Assembly (NCBI GenBank): GCA_012838315.1
Contig: DUPM01000159.1
Span: 1 to 52,299 of the forward strand
Reading direction: 5' to 3'
DNA from: Clostridiaceae bacterium
GTDB taxonomy: Bacteria; Bacillota; Clostridia; Saccharofermentanales; Saccharofermentanaceae
DNA: 52,299 nucleotides
Shown here one piece after another: positions 20,644-51,101 of this stretch. A model generated the notes under the pieces. The model was given only the letters and a program-made list of their open reading frames with translations. It had not been told where the DNA came from and did no database searches. The translations under genes and the position numbers were made by a program. Positions within the stretch are counted from its first letter, which is position 1; each line of letters starts with the position of its first letter.

Positions 20644-23600
20644 TCAGAATAGCGAAAAGAGGTCGATTTGCTCAGACTCCGGCAAGTGATCAATAATGCC
20701 AAAGGTCGCGATCTTGTCTATAGTTGACGGCCCGATGCCGCTACGCTTAGACAAATCATCTCGCGTCTTAAACGGTTTTTCATCTCTCGCCCTTACAATC
20801 GACTCCGCCATAGCGGTACTGACAGACGGGATGGTATTGAGCGGTGGTAAAATCTTGCCGTGTTGAGTTTTAAGGAAACGATGCGAATGCGATTTTTCAA
20901 TGCTGATTGGGTCAAACGTAATACCGCGGCGATACATCTCCTCGACAAGCTCTAAGAGATAGTATTGCGCCTGCTCTTTTTGCTTGCGCTTTGAAAACCC
21001 GTCGTAGAGCTCTTTTCGCTGCTTGATGATATTATCCAGTGATGACAACATCATCTCACCGTCGAATTCATCAGCTCGAATAGAAAAGAACGCACAATAA
21101 TATTCTTCGGGATAATAGACCTTAAACCAAGCAATTCTCAGAGAGGAAATCGCATATGCCGCAGCGTGCGCTTTGGGGAACATGTACTTGATTTTTTTAC
21201 ATGACTCTATGTACCAATCCGGTACATTACTATCGCGCATCGCTTTTTCCTGTTCAGGAAGTAATCCTCTGCCCTTACGAACCCGCTCCATAATATCAAA
21301 TGCAGCTTTATTCTCGAGTCCGCAATTGATTAGGTAAGTCATGATGCTGTCACGACAACCGATGACATTTTTGAGCGTACACGTCTGATTTCGAATCAGT
21401 TCTTGTGCGTTACCTTTCCATACATCTGTACCATGTGACAAACCCATCAACTGCACCAATTCATAGAAAGTCGAAGGTTTGGTCTCGGATATCATATCTC
21501 GAGCCATAAATGTACCCATCTCGGAAAGTCCAAGCGTACCGGAATCCGCGTCTGAAGATCCGGGTGATATACCGAGGGACTCCGTCGACGTAAACAGCGC
21601 CATGACTTTGGGGTCCGGAATCGGAATTGTTCGCACATCAATACCGGTTAAATCACTTAACATCCGCAAGACGGTCGGATCATAGTGACCAAGAATATCA
21701 AGCTTCAAGATGGTGTCATGCATGGCCTTAAAGTCAAAATGTGTGGTAACCATATTGCCCTGGCTCTTGTTCGCAGGATACTGTATGGGCGTAAATTCAT
21801 AGACATCCATTTCTTTGGGAACAACCACAATACCACCGGGATGTTGTCCGGTAGTCCTTTTCACGCCAATTAAGCCCATTGATCGCCTGCGAAGCTCTGC
21901 ACGATTAACTGTCTGATTCATTTGTTCGGTGGCTTTAAGGACGGTGCCAATGGCGTTTTTCTCAGCATAACAACCGATTGTCCCCGCTCGAAAAGTATGA
22001 CTGGTTCCGAACAACTCTTCGACATATTTATGTGCTCTGGATTGATACTCACTTGAAAAATTCAAGTCAATATCAGGTTGCTTGTCGCCGAAAAAGCCCA
22101 GAAATGTCTCAAAAGGAATCTCTTGCCCTTCTCGAGTCATCTCGGCACCGCAATGTGGGCATGATTTTTCGGGCAAATCATATCCGGATCCGTATTCTCC
22201 GCTTAAATCAAATTCCGAAAAGCAACATTGATTGCACAAATAGTGCGGCGGTAAAGGATTGACTTCCGATATGCCGCAAAGTGTCGCGACCAAACTTGAG
22301 CCGACTGAACCACGAGATCCGACAATATAACCGTCTTCATTTGATTTTTTGACAAGCATATAAGCGATATAATACATAATCGCAAAACCGTTGCCGATGA
22401 TGGAATCAAGTTCTTTGTTGACACGTGCTTCCACGATTTCGGAAATTTTCCCATCGAATTCATACCATTCCTTTGCCTTATCCCATGTAATACGTCGGAT
22501 ATCATCTGCCGCACTAGTGATAATGGGCGGATACGTGCCGTTCGGGAAAGGAATAATATCTGAAGAAGTGCGCTTCGCTATCGCGCAGGGCTGTGTGATT
22601 ACCACTTCGCGCGCCTTTTCATCTCCGAGATACGAAAATTCGTTTAACATCTCGTCAGTCGTTCTAAAATAGAGGTCGCTTTGCTGCTGAGCATCCTTAT
22701 ACTGCATCTCCATAAGGATGTATTTGCGATACTCCCCCTCTTCTTTTTCGAGAAAGTGAGCATCCGTCGTAGCGCAAACAGGAATATGCAACGTATCACC
22801 CAGAGCCACTATGATGCGATTGAGCTCTCTTAACTCATCAATCGTATTGATTCCACTTTCCGGATCCCGTAAATAAAATTCGTTGTTACAAGCCGGTTGA
22901 ATTTCAAGATAATCGTAAAGATTGAGTTTTCTCAAAAAGGCCGGATCCCGCGATAAAAGCTGCACAGTTGTTTTTGAGTTTTTCGCGGAGTCCAGAAAAC
23001 ACTTGAGCACGTCCACGAACACTTCACCCGCCTCACAAGCGCTCCCGATAATTAATCCATCGCGATAGAATTCTAGTAGCGATTTGGGAATACGCGGTCG
23101 ATTCCCATAAAATCGAAGATGCGACTCTGACACCAAGCGATAAAGATGATATAACCCCAATTCATTCTCAACCAAAAAGATAATGTGATACGTGCGATGC
23201 TTTCTCATCTTCATTTCTGATTCCGGTACCTTTCCGACGCGATCATTAAGATCTTTGGCGGTATGGACACAAAAATGCTTAAGCAAAGCCGCAAAATACT
23301 GACCAACAGATCGAGCTTTTGTGTCAGTACTCGTCACCCCATCCTCTTCGACAAGAGACATCTGCAACGGGCGATAGTCAAAATCTAGACGCGGCAAATC
23401 TAACAATCGCTTGGCATCGGCCGCAGGCATGTTAAATTTGACTCGATACTCTTGATGCGCTTCTATATCAACATCGTAACCTTCTTCACGAAGTATTTTC
23501 AGAACATCAAAAACATCGTCGGCCACTAAGACATCATGCCCGATGTACGCTGATAGCTCACCTAATCGCTGACGAAGCATTTGACCAAACGCTAACGCGC

Positions 23601-24987
23601 TCTTGGAATTCTCCTCCGTATCACATGCGACAATCTCATGAGACAAAAAGGAACTTGTATCTATCTGGAAAGTTGACTCGGGCAAAAAGTCACCAAGCTC
23701 AGACAAAAGGTAACGATGTGCCGTAATTTTGATGGGTCGTAATCGACCGAAAACGTCAGCTTTTTCAATATCAATCGCAACAAAACGCTCGAGGAGTGGG
23801 TCAGACGGGTCCGCGTTATAAATGGCGCAATCACCGTCATCCAAGAGATAGCCTTCCATACCGTAAATCATTTGAAAATTCTCAGAACCGACCTTCTTTC
23901 GAATCTTTCGAACTGTTTCAGCCGCTTCCGGAAAGGCCTGAACTACACCATGATCCGTAATTGCACAGGCCGGATGGCCCATCTCAGCCGCGGTTTCAAG
24001 TAATTCCGAAATATTGATGACCGCATCTTTATCACTCATTTTGGTGTGAACATGTAGTTCGACACGTTTCTCTTCGGAAAGGTCTTTTCGTTTTGGTGGG
24101 GCATCAATTTGCATCACCCCTTCGATTGATGCCGATAAATCACGAGAATATTTCGAATCAAAATACACATTTGCCTGAACTCTCGCATAGGCACCCTTTT
24201 TAAATGTTGACGTCGCAATATCTGCGTCCTGCGGGTTTAAAAATGCGATGCAGGGAATGCTACCCGTATCGTCGGTTGCAAAGAACTGCGCACAGACCTT
24301 GTGCCCCGACCTCGTGAGCTTGAAATCATCAATTTCAAACTTGCCCTCGAATCGAACCGTTCCGGACATACTGTCCAAGGAACCTATTTTTACAAGTGGA
24401 ACGCTATCAGACATTCTACCCCAGAGAACAGCTTGATCTTTCTTTTTCGGAACGAATTTTGGCGTATTTTCTGTCTTCTGTAGGCTGGCTTTGTATTCCC
24501 ATGAGTCCTTGTCCTGAGTGGCGCTCGAATCGACGTCCTTTTTTCGTTTTTTGGCAGAAGGTCCGGTATTTTCTGATTCCGGATTACTTTTTGTTGAAGC
24601 TTCGAATTGTTTTTGCGCTGCCAGAATTGCCTGTGTTTCTTGTTTTAATCGTTCTTCGTAAGCAATGAGAACGCGCCTCCCAGAGGACTCATCCGACGGA
24701 GTCAGGCCATTGCTCGATTTTTCCAATGTTATATTTTGCAAGCGTTGATACGTAAATGGGCAGACTAAACGTACGCCGTCTACACGAAAGTGTTTTCGAA
24801 GAGCCGCTTCAACCGATTTAACTTGTAACTCGGATACATTTTGATCCATATCCAACAATACGATTTCAAGTCGGTTTGTATCGTCACTCAAACGAAGACG
24901 GTGCACCAACGCATTCAGCTCCGAAGCCGCACTAATTACTCGATCGTCATCAATAAACGACCGAACCAGCTCATCCAAAAAGACCAT
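20644..24987 (-). CDS. polC: DNA polymerase III alpha subunit, PolC type, with altered exonuclease domain
   Basis: Replicative polymerase of low-GC Gram-positives, 1447 residues. The order is an N-terminal domain, a charged linker (about 125-185), OB fold (about 190-295), PHP first half with ELHVHTKMSD (310-319) and ITDHG (343-347), an exonuclease insert (about 400-575), PHP second half (TTDAHF, 740-745), and the palm with PDIDLNF (971-977) and KLDILGH. The protein ends in a clamp-binding-like QIDLFSLF. The zinc pair CNQC...CPHC is present. The exonuclease insert is unusual: Exo I keeps DIE (406-408) but lacks the usual TTG, and the HxxxxD motif of Exo III has no His. It starts 7 bases after ispG. 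Confidence 0.96.
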   Translation of the reverse strand: MVFLDELVRSFIDDDRVISAASELNALVHRLRLSDDTNRLEIVLLDMDQNVSELQVKSVEAALRKHFRVDGVRLVCPFTYQRLQNITLEKSSNGLTPSDESSGRRVLIAYEERLKQETQAILAAQKQFEASTKSNPESENTGPSAKKRKKDVDSSATQDKDSWEYKASLQKTENTPKFVPKKKDQAVLWGRMSDSVPLVKIGSLDSMSGTVRFEGKFEIDDFKLTRSGHKVCAQFFATDDTGSIPCIAFLNPQDADIATSTFKKGAYARVQANVYFDSKYSRDLSASIEGVMQIDAPPKRKDLSEEKRVELHVHTKMSDKDAVINISELLETAAEMGHPACAITDHGVVQAFPEAAETVRKIRKKVGSENFQMIYGMEGYLLDDGDCAIYNADPSDPLLERFVAIDIEKADVFGRLRPIKITAHRYLLSELGDFLPESTFQIDTSSFLSHEIVACDTEENSKSALAFGQMLRQRLGELSAYIGHDVLVADDVFDVLKILREEGYDVDIEAHQEYRVKFNMPAADAKRLLDLPRLDFDYRPLQMSLVEEDGVTSTDTKARSVGQYFAALLKHFCVHTAKDLNDRVGKVPESEMKMRKHRTYHIIFLVENELGLYHLYRLVSESHLRFYGNRPRIPKSLLEFYRDGLIIGSACEAGEVFVDVLKCFLDSAKNSKTTVQLLSRDPAFLRKLNLYDYLEIQPACNNEFYLRDPESGINTIDELRELNRIIVALGDTLHIPVCATTDAHFLEKEEGEYRKYILMEMQYKDAQQQSDLYFRTTDEMLNEFSYLGDEKAREVVITQPCAIAKRTSSDIIPFPNGTYPPIITSAADDIRRITWDKAKEWYEFDGKISEIVEARVNKELDSIIGNGFAIMYYIAYMLVKKSNEDGYIVGSRGSVGSSLVATLCGISEVNPLPPHYLCNQCCFSEFDLSGEYGSGYDLPEKSCPHCGAEMTREGQEIPFETFLGFFGDKQPDIDLNFSSEYQSRAHKYVEELFGTSHTFRAGTIGCYAEKNAIGTVLKATEQMNQTVNRAELRRRSMGLIGVKRTTGQHPGGIVVVPKEMDVYEFTPIQYPANKSQGNMVTTHFDFKAMHDTILKLDILGHYDPTVLRMLSDLTGIDVRTIPIPDPKVMALFTSTESLGISPGSSDADSGTLGLSEMGTFMARDMISETKPSTFYELVQLMGLSHGTDVWKGNAQELIRNQTCTLKNVIGCRDSIMTYLINCGLENKAAFDIMERVRKGRGLLPEQEKAMRDSNVPDWYIESCKKIKYMFPKAHAAAYAISSLRIAWFKVYYPEEYYCAFFSIRADEFDGEMMLSSLDNIIKQRKELYDGFSKRKQKEQAQYYLLELVEEMYRRGITFDPISIEKSHSHRFLKTQHGKILPPLNTIPSVSTAMAESIVRARDEKPFKTRDDLSKRSGIGPSTIDKIATFGIIDHLPESEQIDLFSLF

Positions 24988-36875: not shown

Positions 36876-39050
36876 CTATTTTTCAACAACTTCTTCAGTA
36901 GCTTCTGCAGGCATTTCGTCTGTTGATGCTTCTTCTGTTTGCGCATCTTCCAATGAGACCTCTTCTGTTGGTATCTCATCTGTTGAAACCACCGCATCAG
37001 AATCCGTCTCCATCGGAACTTCTACATTATCTTCAACAGAAGCAACTACCTGCTCCTCTTTTTCGGCCTTATCAAAGGCTTCGTCATCGGATTTCACAGG
37101 GTTAATCGCCTCAACATCCTTGATACTGATGCTGATTCGACGGGTCTCGTTGCTGACATCCAAGACGCGAGCAATAACTTCCATGCCTTCAGTCAAAACA
37201 TCTTCAGGCCTATTCAGACGAACATCCGATATTTGCGATACATGACAAAGTGCATCGACACCCGGCTCAAGTTCAACAAATGCACCAAACTGGAACATGC
37301 GAACAACTTTGCCATGAACGATGCTGCCGATCGGGAATCTCTCTTCAACATTGTGATACGGATCATCCTCAGAACGCTTATATCCCAAAGAAATACGCTT
37401 CTTCTCGGAATCGAAATCCTTAACGTATACAGAGATATTGTCGCCGACACTAACAATTTCGGATGGGTGACGAATTCGCTTCCATGACAATTCAGAAACG
37501 TGAACCAAACCATCCACACCACCAATATCAACAAATGCTCCAAAATCGGTCAGGCTTCTTACGACACCTTGATACTCAGCACCGACTTCTATCGCACTCC
37601 ACACTTCATCCGCCTTCTCCTTACGCTGACTGTTGAGCAACGCACGACGAGAACCCGAAACACGTAAGCGTCTCTTGTCGGGATCAAACTGTGTGACTAG
37701 GATTTCTATGGACTTTCCTTTGTATTGATCTAAATCATTAACCGTGGTCAAATCAAGCTGCGTTCTGTGAATGTAGATATCCACACCGCCAAGATTGGCG
37801 ATAACTCCATCCTTAACAACGTTTGTAATCTTTACAGTGACTGGAGTCGCATTCTCGAAAGCCTCTTCGACCTGGGCCTTATACTTGCCAAAATCGACAT
37901 GTGCCTTAGAGAGCAAAATCTCTTTCCCCATATCAGAATTACGTACACTTCGAACAAATACCTCAATCTCTGTATGAGCCTCAATCGCTACATCCAGATC
38001 AAAATCAGGGTCGTTAGCAAATTCATGGCGGGGAATACGTCCTTCCGATTTGTCATGAACGTCAACATATACAAACTCGTTGTCTGCAGATGTAATCGCC
38101 CCCCTCACCGTCGCATTCTTTCTGAGTTGTGGAATGTTGTCGATGTAATCACCAAAATTGATGTCGGTTTGTTCCTGATTGGCCGTAGCCTGGTCTTCAC
38201 TCATGGTTTGGATAACCTCCCTGATAATACAATCTGGCGTCGACGCACCTGCCGTAACTCCAACAACAATATTCGGAGTTGAGAATACCGGATTCTCAAG
38301 AACCTTTATGATGTCATGAACGCCTCCGACAAGAAACGTGTTCGCGCAACGACTATTACAGATATCGTAAAGCTTCATCGTGTTCGAGCTCTTCTCAGAT
38401 CCGATGATAATCATACAGTCTGAGGATGCCGCTAAATCAGATGCTTCACGCTGTCTGTTTTCAGTCGTACTACATATTGTATCAAAAAACTGCTCATTTG
38501 CAATTTTATTCTTGGCATTTTGTCGGATTTTTTTGTATTCCGACGAAGAAAATGTTGTCTGAGAGATTAAAATCGTGTTTTCGGGGTCCGTTTCAAGCAA
38601 ATCAAAGTCTTCTTGGCTTTCGACTACAGTTACGTAATCCTCTGCCTCCCCACGGATACCTTCCACCTCAGGGTGACCATTTTTTCCGGTGATAATGATT
38701 CTTTTCCCTTTCTGGGACTCCTGTTTGACAATTTTATGAATTTTTTTAACAAAAGGACAAGTGCAGTCAACAATTTTGCAATGATTTGCTTCAATCGCAT
38801 CTTTGATTTGTGGGGTAACACCGTGAGCTCGAATTATTACCGTGCTGCCTTGATCAATTTCATCAACGGAGTTGGCCAAATGCATGCCACTTTCTATGAG
38901 GTCATTCACAACAAATTCGTTGTGCGTTATTGCGCCTAACATATATACTTTCGTACCCGGTTCAGAATTTGAAAGGACCGCGTATGCGGTCTTAACCGCC
39001 TGGTCCACGCCAAAACAGAAACCAGCGTTCTTAGCCACTTTGATGATCAT
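36876..39050 (-). CDS. ispH: Fused HMBPP reductase (IspH) and ribosomal S1-like protein
   Basis: A 724-residue bifunctional protein. Residues 1-285 are IspH, the last MEP-pathway enzyme, with cluster cysteines at Cys12 (GFCFGV), Cys98 (in CTCPF) and Cys193 (DTICSTT), plus THNEFVV and GKNGHPEVEG. After a linker come four S1 OB-fold domains (about 312-383, 401-468, 488-557, 573-644), e.g. GVVRSLTDFGAFVDIGGVDGLVHVSELSW. A very acidic tail (650-724) rich in Glu, Asp, Thr and Ser ends the protein. The fusion is known from Clostridia and is not an assembly artefact: one frame reads across. It overlaps cmk by ATGA, matching the old cmk-rpsA linkage. Confidence 0.96.
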   Translation of the reverse strand: MIIKVAKNAGFCFGVDQAVKTAYAVLSNSEPGTKVYMLGAITHNEFVVNDLIESGMHLANSVDEIDQGSTVIIRAHGVTPQIKDAIEANHCKIVDCTCPFVKKIHKIVKQESQKGKRIIITGKNGHPEVEGIRGEAEDYVTVVESQEDFDLLETDPENTILISQTTFSSSEYKKIRQNAKNKIANEQFFDTICSTTENRQREASDLAASSDCMIIIGSEKSSNTMKLYDICNSRCANTFLVGGVHDIIKVLENPVFSTPNIVVGVTAGASTPDCIIREVIQTMSEDQATANQEQTDINFGDYIDNIPQLRKNATVRGAITSADNEFVYVDVHDKSEGRIPRHEFANDPDFDLDVAIEAHTEIEVFVRSVRNSDMGKEILLSKAHVDFGKYKAQVEEAFENATPVTVKITNVVKDGVIANLGGVDIYIHRTQLDLTTVNDLDQYKGKSIEILVTQFDPDKRRLRVSGSRRALLNSQRKEKADEVWSAIEVGAEYQGVVRSLTDFGAFVDIGGVDGLVHVSELSWKRIRHPSEIVSVGDNISVYVKDFDSEKKRISLGYKRSEDDPYHNVEERFPIGSIVHGKVVRMFQFGAFVELEPGVDALCHVSQISDVRLNRPEDVLTEGMEVIARVLDVSNETRRISISIKDVEAINPVKSDDEAFDKAEKEEQVVASVEDNVEVPMETDSDAVVSTDEIPTEEVSLEDAQTEEASTDEMPAEATEEVVEK

Positions 39051-47948: not shown

Positions 47949-50900
47949 TTACACCTTGGTCAGGAACAAATGACAGCGTTCTCCGTTGATATCCCATTCT
48001 TTACCTTCTTCGGAAGCGTCCTTTGTTAGCTCAATCGCAAGTACATCTGATGCGATGGCGTCTTTGTTATTTGAAATGACTTGGGTCAGTTTCTCTGATG
48101 CGTCATAGAAAACTTTAATTCGGTCAGTCACCTCAAACCCGGATTCTTTTCTTTGTGTCTGAATCTTCGAGACCAATTCTCTGACGAATCCCTCTTCAAT
48201 CAAATCCTCCGTTAATTGGGTATCGAGTGCTACCGTATACTCCCGCTCAGACTGAGTCGAAAGACCTTCTGGCTGAACCGTCTCAGGGATAAAGTCTTCC
48301 GGATCCAGTTCAAAAGTCTCACCGTCTACAACAATTGAAACGTTCTGACCGGCTTCAATCGCCGCCATTGTCTCTTTTCCGGGCAATGCTGCGATAACAT
48401 CACGTGCTGCGTTCAACTTCGCGCCCAATTTCTTACCCAACGTTCTCAGCTGCGGCTTGAATCGATAGTCAATCAATGCAGAGGCATCCTTAACAAATTC
48501 AACCTCGCGAATATTCAGTTCTTCCATAATAATTGATAGGTACGCTTCTTCTAAAGACTCAGGCACAACGGCGTAGAGTTTTGAAAGCGGTTGACGATTC
48601 TTGATAGCCGCCGTGTTTCGGCAAGCTCGTCCGAGATATACGATCTGTTGAGCAACATCCATTTGCGCTTCAAGCTCAGGATCAATCATTGATGTATCAA
48701 CCATCGGATAATCACACATATGAATGGATTCATGCGCATTCTTGTCAACGGAGCAGACCAAATTCTGATAAATGGCTTCGGTCATATAAGGTACAAAGGG
48801 TGCCGCGAGCTTTGAAAATGAGACTAGAACATGATAAAGCACCAAATATGCGTTAATCTTGTCCTGCGTCATCTCACTGCCCCAGTACCGCTCTCTCGAG
48901 CGACGAACATACCAATTAGACAGTTCATCAACAAAGGTTTCCATCAAGCGAGCAGCGCCGGTAATATCATAACCGTACATACGGGTCTCGACCGCACCAA
49001 CCAAAGTGTTGAGTCTTGAAAGAATCCAGCGATCCATAACACCGAGTGTCGACGAATCAAGAGTATAGTGTGTCGGATTAAATTTATCGATGTTCGCATA
49101 CATGACATAGAATGCATAAGTATTCCAGAGGGTTCCGATAAATTTCCGCTGAACCTCAGAAACGCCGGCATCCGAAAAACGACTTGGCAACCAAGGTGCA
49201 TTTGCGCTACAGAAATACCACCTTGCGGCATCCGCGCCTTGCTTGTTGAGAATGTCCCATGGGTCGACAACATTGCCTTTGTGCTTACTCATCTTGATGC
49301 CATCTTTATCTTGAACGAGTCCCATGACAATGCAGTTTTCAAAAGGCGACTTGTCGAAGAGCTGCGTCCCGATAGCAAGCAAAGAGTAGAACCATCCTCG
49401 CGTTTGGTCCAATGCCTCAGAAATGAACTGCGCCGGATAATGACTTTCAAAAAATTCTTTGTTTTCAAATGGATAGTGGTATTGTGCAAAAGGCATTGCA
49501 CCGGAGTCAAACCAGCAGTCAATAACTTCTGACACGCGAGTCATTTTCTCGCCGCATTGATCGCAACGAATATGGACCGCATCAACATAAGGCTTATGAA
49601 GTTCAATATCTTCCGGACAATCGTCGGACATGCTCTTAAGTTCTTCGATAGAACCAATACAGTGCTTGTGACCGCAACCGCACTCCCAAACAGGAAGCGG
49701 CGTACCCCAATAACGTTCTCTGGAAATACCCCAGTCCACAACGTTTTCAAGAAAGTTGCCCATTCGCCCATCACGAATCGTCTCCGGGTGCCACGCGACC
49801 GAACGATTCGATGCAATCAGTGCATCACGCACCTTAGTCATCGCGATAAACCAAGAGGACCGTGCGTAATAAATCAACGGCGTATCACATCTCCAACAAA
49901 AAGGGTATTCATGCTCATAAAGGTGTTTCTTAATGAGCTTTCCTTCTTGGTTTAATCTCTTAATTAAGAGAGGATCCGCATCTTTAACAAACATGCCTGC
50001 AAATTCTTCAGATTCAGGAGGAAGCGTACCGTCTTCCAAGACCAATTGGACAAAAGGCAAATCATAATTTCTACCGACGCGAGCATCATCGTCACCGAAT
50101 GCCGGCGCGATATGAACAATGCCGGTACCGTCATTCATTGTGACATATGTATCTGAGGTGACTCGAAAAGCCGTTTTGCCGCTCTCTGACACAGCAGAAG
50201 CTGAAAACGGAAACAACGGCTCATAAGTCATTCCTACCAAATCGCTGCCCGCCACACGCTCCTCGACAACAAAATCCTCGAAAAGTAACGGAGCCAACAC
50301 GCCTGCCATATAATAACGAACAATCTTCTCAGTGCCATCAAGATCTTTATTGACTGCAATCCGAACGTACTCTTCATCCGGATGGACACAAAGACCAACA
50401 TTAGAGGGCAATGTCCAAGGCGTTGTCGTCCAAGACGCAAAATAAACATCTTCTTGCCCCTTGAGCTTGAACCGGATATATACAGAATTCTCGGTCACAT
50501 TACGGTAGCCTTGAGCCACCTCATGACTTGAAAGAGACGTGCCGCAGCGCGGACAATACGGGACTATTTTATGCCCTTTGTAGAGCATATCCTTATCCCA
50601 CATCGTCTTCAGTGCCCACCATTCGGACTCAATATAATTGTTCTCATACGTCACATAAGGGTGCTCCATATCTGCCCAAAAACCGACGCGATCAGACATC
50701 TGTTCCCATTCATCCTTATACTTCCAGACGGACTCTTTGCATTTTTTGATGAAGGGCTCAACACCATAGCTCTCAATTTCAGGCTTGCCATTGATGCCCA
50801 ACATTTTCTCAACTTCAAGTTCAACCGGCAGACCATGTGTATCCCATCCGGCCTTAAACTCAACGCGCTCGCCCTTCATCCCACGAAATCTCGGAATGAC

Positions 50901-51101
50901 ATCCTTTATGACACGCGTCTTAATGTGCCCAAAATGTGGCTTGCCATTAGCCGTCGGCGGACCATCGTACAACGTGAACGAAGGCGTTCCCTCTTTAGCT
51001 GCTCGGATTGAGCGATTTCGAATATCATTGGCCTTCCAAAAGGCTAGAATATCTTTTTCACGTTCTACAAAATTCATATCCGTCGAAACTTTTTCGTACA
51101 T
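47949..51101 (-). CDS. ileS: Isoleucyl-tRNA synthetase (long, IleS2-like)
   Basis: Class I synthetase with editing domain, 1050 residues. Landmarks are DGPPTANGKPHFGHI (HIGH region, 46-60), KAGWDTHGLPVELEVEK, the editing-domain TTPWTLPSN and KMSKHKGNVVDPWD near 605. An internal zinc-binding region (CGCGHKHC, then CDQCGEKM) and a C-terminal extension lie beyond the anticodon domain. Length and motifs suggest the eukaryote-like IleS2 type, often less sensitive to mupirocin; that is inference. It has its own promoter about 60 bases upstream and no T-box leader. Confidence 0.96.
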   Translation of the reverse strand: MYEKVSTDMNFVEREKDILAFWKANDIRNRSIRAAKEGTPSFTLYDGPPTANGKPHFGHIKTRVIKDVIPRFRGMKGERVEFKAGWDTHGLPVELEVEKMLGINGKPEIESYGVEPFIKKCKESVWKYKDEWEQMSDRVGFWADMEHPYVTYENNYIESEWWALKTMWDKDMLYKGHKIVPYCPRCGTSLSSHEVAQGYRNVTENSVYIRFKLKGQEDVYFASWTTTPWTLPSNVGLCVHPDEEYVRIAVNKDLDGTEKIVRYYMAGVLAPLLFEDFVVEERVAGSDLVGMTYEPLFPFSASAVSESGKTAFRVTSDTYVTMNDGTGIVHIAPAFGDDDARVGRNYDLPFVQLVLEDGTLPPESEEFAGMFVKDADPLLIKRLNQEGKLIKKHLYEHEYPFCWRCDTPLIYYARSSWFIAMTKVRDALIASNRSVAWHPETIRDGRMGNFLENVVDWGISRERYWGTPLPVWECGCGHKHCIGSIEELKSMSDDCPEDIELHKPYVDAVHIRCDQCGEKMTRVSEVIDCWFDSGAMPFAQYHYPFENKEFFESHYPAQFISEALDQTRGWFYSLLAIGTQLFDKSPFENCIVMGLVQDKDGIKMSKHKGNVVDPWDILNKQGADAARWYFCSANAPWLPSRFSDAGVSEVQRKFIGTLWNTYAFYVMYANIDKFNPTHYTLDSSTLGVMDRWILSRLNTLVGAVETRMYGYDITGAARLMETFVDELSNWYVRRSRERYWGSEMTQDKINAYLVLYHVLVSFSKLAAPFVPYMTEAIYQNLVCSVDKNAHESIHMCDYPMVDTSMIDPELEAQMDVAQQIVYLGRACRNTAAIKNRQPLSKLYAVVPESLEEAYLSIIMEELNIREVEFVKDASALIDYRFKPQLRTLGKKLGAKLNAARDVIAALPGKETMAAIEAGQNVSIVVDGETFELDPEDFIPETVQPEGLSTQSEREYTVALDTQLTEDLIEEGFVRELVSKIQTQRKESGFEVTDRIKVFYDASEKLTQVISNNKDAIASDVLAIELTKDASEEGKEWDINGERCHLFLTKV

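Follow-up and report, generated by a model that had tools for sequence, protein, structure and literature searches.

A vestigial, apparently inactivated proofreading exonuclease domain, predicted to remain folded, in the replicative polymerase PolC of a clostridial bacterium

The window considered here, positions 1 to 52,299 of contig DUPM01000159.1 of a Clostridiaceae bacterium (assembly GCA_012838315.1, order Saccharofermentanales), encodes on its reverse strand a full-length PolC of 1447 residues with an ATG start. The open reading frame exceeds the cut-offs of both PolC models (873 bits for NF001688, which it matches over residues 85-1444, and 1043 bits for TIGR01405; Table 1), strongly matches the solved PolC structures from G. 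kaustophilus and S. aureus, and lies in the usual, conserved operon rpsB-tsf-pyrH-frr-uppS-cdsA-dxr-rseP-ispG-polC-priA. The genome, a draft of 163 contigs and 2.14 Mb that is 95.5% complete, carries one PolC and one DnaE, and the polymerase catalytic motifs PDIDLNF (971) and KLDILG (1095) are intact, as an earlier note made from the sequence alone had read them, and align with those of all relatives. In other respects the protein is an ordinary replicative PolC, of the clostridial type that is paired with DnaE1. What sets it apart is the DEDDh exonuclease domain inserted into its PHP domain. Textbooks treat this domain of PolC as the proofreader of the Gram-positive replisome; here, as the earlier note had proposed, it appears to be inactivated.

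A DEDDh exonuclease is defined by the D-x-E of Exo I, the Asp of Exo II, and the His and Asp of Exo III-epsilon. Two of these five essential residues are missing, their places being taken by Val495 and Gly550, and others differ between sister species. In Exo I, D406-I-E408 is kept but is followed by KAD where intact relatives have TTG, and the ELTG segment is absent from the insert, both as previously described. The description of Exo II has to be corrected: Asp494, taken by the earlier note as a retained catalytic residue, is one position off. The intact GHNxFFD reads ADDVFDV here and, because VIVGHNIFFDMGF aligns without gaps to VLVADDVFDVLKI of intact PolCs from the same family, the Exo II Asp position falls on Val495; Asp494 itself aligns with the Phe that precedes the catalytic one, and the sister species has Ala there. 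In Exo III, HRAxxD reads GVTSTD (550-555), with G550 at the His position, and the pairing of D555 with the final catalytic Asp is alignment-dependent. The earlier note had held that a His four to five residues ahead of the final Asp would tell against its claim, and we find none in the region 396-600, where the only His residues are at 424, 450, 484, 511, 571, 575 and 597, leaving none between 512 and 570. Profile searches agree: Pfam RNase_T has no match in the insert, whereas it hits intact PolCs from this family at 1e-33 to 1e-35, and a profile built from the intact exonuclease domains of 23 PolCs has no hit anywhere in the genome, with intact relatives scoring 1e-46 to 1e-67.

The sister species L002, whose PolC is 83% identical, shows the same loss with different residues, D406 being also replaced by Ala, which rules out sequencing error. 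More generally, the idea that we are looking at a sequencing error, a chimera or a decaying gene could appeal to the draft state of the assembly, but is scarcely credible given a fully open frame, a conserved operon, the recurrence of this condition in the sister species as well as in many independent genomes, and nonsynonymous divergence (dN) far below synonymous divergence (dS).

The loss extends well beyond the sister species. We surveyed 188 genomes within the order and a class sample of 393 genomes, labeling genera so that g1 is the genus of the present genome, g1-g5 belong to its family, g6, g9, g12, g19 and g21-g23 to family f2, and g11 to family f4. Within the order, the PolC exonuclease is intact in g4 of the same family, in family f3, in most of f4, and in g6 and part of g23 (f2); it is eroded in g1, g2, g3 and g5, in g9, g12, g21 and part of g23 (f2), and in g11 (f4). 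In g2, a sister genus, for which about 85 genomes are listed, every aligned native PolC is eroded. One g2 genome, G136, has a second, intact PolC (L196, G136:C18; PHP ligands HHDIEHCDH) beside its own eroded copy, but this second protein groups with Lachnospiraceae PolCs on the tree, and we rejected it as a native g2 PolC and treated it as contamination or horizontal acquisition. On a tree of 72 PolCs, calculated with the exonuclease region excluded from the alignment, there are at least 13 changes between active and inactive states. Within the order, with loss counted as irreversible, we put the number of independent losses at roughly seven. One of these falls inside a single genus, g23, where L155 and L156 keep DVETTG...HNVLFD...HRAEAD and L189 and L190 have the catalytic residues replaced in a domain that is otherwise recognizable. 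Outside the order, the low scorers of the class sample are mostly PolCs of about 1150-1320 residues from which the insert has been deleted; eroded domains next to a complete PHP site occur in L141 (Lachnospiraceae bacterium UBA3689), which has DVAMR at the catalytic positions, and in L221 and L226 (family f36), whose inserts are just 150-161 residues long. Judged by these sequences, the DEDDh proofreader of PolC has repeatedly decayed within a single clostridial order, with two or more further cases in other parts of the class. It is the combination of the sequence itself, its relatives and this repeated occurrence that makes inactivation of the DEDDh exonuclease in the present PolC strongly supported. 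A literature search for Saccharofermentans together with the Pol III exonuclease found nothing.

The domain has nevertheless not simply fallen apart, and the suggestion that the insert keeps its place in the fold agrees with structure prediction. A model of the exonuclease domain alone (residues 390-590; mean predicted local distance difference test score, pLDDT, 84) matches the S. aureus PolC exonuclease domain (9qrn) with a Z score of 16.1 and a root-mean-square deviation (rmsd) of 4.4 over 158 aligned residues, and E. coli epsilon with a Z score of 12.5 and an rmsd of 4.0 over 143; the DEDDh nuclease fold is thus predicted to be retained with its active site gone. The match is cleaner for this domain alone than for a model of PHP and exonuclease together, whose large rmsd to S. 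aureus PolC we think reflects a different placement of the two domains. Between the two species of g1, dN is 0.29 in the exonuclease region and 0.05 in the polymerase region, a ratio of 6, compared with ratios of 1.6-2.3 in three intact pairs and 2.5 to 5.8 in other eroded pairs. As synonymous sites in the exonuclease region of this pair are saturated, we use dN by itself and give no dN/dS. Because dN remains below a mostly saturated synonymous change, the eroded domain is still under selection: purifying selection has been relaxed, to varying degree, but not abolished.

What is conserved is not the active site. The catalytic columns of 42 eroded copies vary at random, the commonest residue reaching 21-31%, whereas a set of non-catalytic positions is close to invariant (group-weighted conservation of 1.00 for R500 and K517, 0.99 for F518 and 0.92 for R515, with N519, N581 and G585 nearly invariant as well). 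This pattern bears on whether the exonuclease could still be active with a rearranged catalytic centre, using D406, E408 and possibly D555, given that DEDD-type folds may tolerate some shifts. We regard this as very improbable, since the sister species lacks both D406 and D494, there is no His near the site, and it is the catalytic rather than the other positions that have drifted. In genus g2 and similar genomes (L051-L062 and L075-L080), the eroded domain carries an additional acidic insert of about 70-120 residues, for example GESDxxAxEFASHDIDKSLW, that is not found in other PolCs. Scanning the PolC for clamp-binding motifs, as in APEX, returned QIDLF (1440, C-terminal) and QYYLL (1341), and none inside the vestigial domain.

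Loss of the DEDDh site does not by itself imply loss of intrinsic proofreading, because PolC has a second potential site in its PHP domain. The metal-ligand consensus there is HHDHEH[C/H]DH, nine residues that can bind three metals (PMC12926913, PMC3666897), and the PolC of the window has the complete set: H312, H314, D321, H346, E378, H601, C651, D742 and H744. Position 8 is of particular interest. The residue is Asp742 here and Asn in the PolC of G. kaustophilus, where no exonuclease activity was seen for the PHP domain, and M. tuberculosis DnaE1 loses its PHP exonuclease upon the substitution D226N (PMC3666897, PMC5636811); from the order of the ligands we take D226 to be position 8. Among 184 aligned PolCs, all nine ligands are present in 43 of 43 with an eroded exonuclease and 35 of 35 in which it is absent (78 of 78 together), as well as in 103 of 106 with an intact one. 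The three broken PHP sites all accompany an intact exonuclease, and no PolC among the 184 has both sites broken. The opposite state is seen most clearly in L063 (g6, f2), a PolC on a long branch with an intact exonuclease and a PHP site, HKDRELLNH, broken at five ligands, in a genome whose DnaE1 PHP is complete. We do not claim mutual exclusion, as the counts (0 of 78 and 3 of 106) are too small to show an association and phylogeny confounds the comparison. Since Clostridia as a rule have a complete PHP site, its presence in all exonuclease-less PolCs is suggestive only. Of the proposal that this replicase lacks intrinsic proofreading and so implies an independent proofreader or an elevated mutation rate, the inactivation of the DEDDh site holds up, but with nine of nine PHP ligands in place the conclusion is weak. 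Neither a separate proofreader nor a mutator state is needed to explain the loss, though either may exist.

Table 1. Features of the PolC gene and protein in the window (positions in the 52,299-nucleotide stretch).
Feature	Position	Strand	Basis
PolC	20644..24987	-	NF001688 1349 bits, TIGR01405 1228 bits; sole PolC of the genome
Vestigial DEDDh (DnaQ-like) exonuclease domain, residues 396-583	23239..23802	-	no RNase_T match; pLDDT 84; catalytic residues gone
Exo I remnant D406-I-E408-K-A-D (DVETTG in intact relatives)	23755..23772	-	alignment; D406 is Ala in sister species L002
Exo II remnant VLVADDVFDV, residues 486-495, Val495 at catalytic Asp	23503..23532	-	alignment
Exo III-epsilon remnant GVTSTD, residues 550-555, Gly550 at catalytic His	23323..23340	-	alignment
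Conserved non-catalytic motif R515-V-K517-F518-N519	23431..23445	-	conservation in 42 eroded copies
R500, conserved together with R515-V-K517-F518-N519	23488-23490	-	conservation in 42 eroded copies
PHP N-terminal part, residues 309-385: H312, H314, D321, H346, E378	23833..24063	-	PF02811 4.6e-24; ligand columns
PHP C-terminal part, residues 597-745: H601, C651, D742, H744	22753..23199	-	ligand order as in G. kaustophilus PolC
Polymerase motif PDIDLNF, residues 971-977	22057..22077	-	aligned with relatives
Polymerase motif KLDILG, residues 1095-1100	21688..21705	-	aligned with relatives

Two other genes of the window deserve mention in their own right. The isoleucyl-tRNA synthetase at 47949-51101 (reverse strand) scores 976 bits against the MupA/MupB models, below their cut-off of 1900 but above its TIGR00392 score, and probably belongs to the type-2 IleRS lineage. 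At 36876-39050, also on the reverse strand, a single open reading frame fuses 4-hydroxy-3-methylbut-2-enyl diphosphate reductase (IspH) to ribosomal protein S1 (NF000907, 665 bits).

A separate DnaQ-like exonuclease acting in trans with PolC might substitute for the lost site, and many relatives do have a standalone DnaQ, including one of 183 residues (L038) in the sister species. In the present genome, however, RNase_T, TIGR00573 (DnaQ), DNA_pol_A_exo1 (the Pol I-type 3'-5' exonuclease) and the PolC exonuclease profile find no match, and queries with both RNase_T proteins of the sister species find no counterpart, so that the check for such a gene proposed in the earlier note came back empty. 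Nor do standalone DnaQ genes track the loss, since they are present both in g2, where the PolC exonuclease has been lost (about 32 of 85 genomes), and in g4, where it is intact (at least 13 of 23). We therefore consider a proofreader in trans of this kind improbable.

A different possibility is that PolC proofreading has been given up, with DnaE1, which has its own intact PHP domain, taking over most of the copying or completing it, PolC reduced to an accessory or lagging-strand enzyme of lower fidelity, and mismatch repair covering the rest. A DnaE1-based idea of the same kind has been put forward before (Timinskas et al., 2014; PMC3919608), and PolC does seem to be dispensable in lineages of the PolC + DnaE1 type: we detected none in the f2 genera g19 and g22 or in families f8, f64, f73, f79, f82 and f86, and these Clostridia, including those with small 0.8-1.2 Mb genomes (f8), appear to replicate with DnaE1 alone. 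In the present genome the PHP ligand set of DnaE1 is complete, by our reading of its sequence, and MutS is present. Yet purifying selection on the polymerase region of PolC is very strong (dN 0.049 and 92% identity in the g1 pair), and the retention of the PHP site in every exonuclease-less PolC would be unexpected if the fidelity of PolC were irrelevant. On balance this seems to us rather unlikely.

We favor instead, as the probable explanation, that decay has left the inserted DEDDh proofreading domain folded but catalytically dead, that proofreading is carried out by PHP, and that the remnant is kept in a non-catalytic capacity. Most likely it is the PHP site of PolC, of DnaE1, or of both that carries proofreading. 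The PHP exonuclease of PolC itself, with its trinuclear metal site, or that of DnaE1 in trans, would excise mismatched primer ends, and such an activity may have made the DEDDh site redundant. The remnant could then persist as a scaffold for the PHP entrance or as a DNA contact, as the invariance of R500 and of the R-x-K-F-N patch would suggest. By analogy such a role is plausible, because the PolC insert sits in a loop that corresponds to the one lining the entrance of the PHP site in M. tuberculosis DnaE1 (PMC5636811). It is tempting to go further and imagine the dead insert as a non-catalytic guide for the PHP nuclease, with R500 and the R-x-K-F-N patch steering the frayed primer towards it, but we hold this to be unlikely. 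Several observations weigh against proofreading by PHP. Complete PHP sites being also the norm beside an intact exonuclease, their retention is not statistically tied to its loss in this sample; a DnaQ gene could lie in a gap of an assembly that is 95.5% complete; and we know of no clostridial PolC whose PHP domain has been shown to be active. The sole tested PolC PHP domain that we found in the literature, that of G. kaustophilus, is inactive (PMC3666897).

Set beside known systems, the present PolC shares with those of Bacilli (B. subtilis, S. aureus, G. kaustophilus) the order OB-PHP(exonuclease inserted)-polymerase-HhH and the same predicted exonuclease fold. It is their reverse in its nuclease sites: the G. 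kaustophilus and Staphylococcus enzymes have a DEDDh exonuclease and Asn at PHP position 8, whereas here the DEDDh site is lost and the PHP site is complete. Exonuclease-less PolCs of Clostridia and Negativicutes are already known (Timinskas et al., 2014; PMC3919608) and likewise combine the lack of a working DEDDh exonuclease with a complete PHP site and a DnaE1 partner, but in these the insert is deleted, leaving 16-57 residues between the PHP halves, whereas here 222 residues separate E378 from H601 and include a predicted folded domain of about 190 residues with its catalytic residues replaced. The DnaE1 proteins of M. tuberculosis and Thermus have the same nine-residue trinuclear site, HHDHEHCDH, and are proposed to proofread without DnaQ; they are, however, of the DnaE subfamily, have no inserted exonuclease domain and possess a proven activity, which in the present PolC is inferred. 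Finally, in Pol alpha, Pol zeta and the bacterial PolA1 and PolA2 (APEX) an exonuclease fold has also outlived its catalytic residues, presumably for structural reasons, although these are family A and B enzymes in which the domain is placed elsewhere, and PolC differs in having a second nuclease site.

According to a 2026 survey, the domain that becomes inactivated in Pol III alpha subunits is not DnaQ; the genomes with an eroded exonuclease are exceptions to that statement. Outright deletion of the insert in Clostridia was known, and the eroded state is more general than first noted. These genomes catch the domain, repeatedly, between intact and deleted. L155 and L156 on one side and L189 and L190 on the other, all in one genus, are an example of the natural pairs available for asking whether the PHP domain of PolC proofreads in vivo. 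If the remnant does act as a guide, a bacterial replicase would have switched its proofreading centre inside one polypeptide, and several times in parallel. Beyond this, the eroded PolCs bear on how the labor of copying is divided in bacteria that have both PolC and DnaE1, and on PolC as a drug target.

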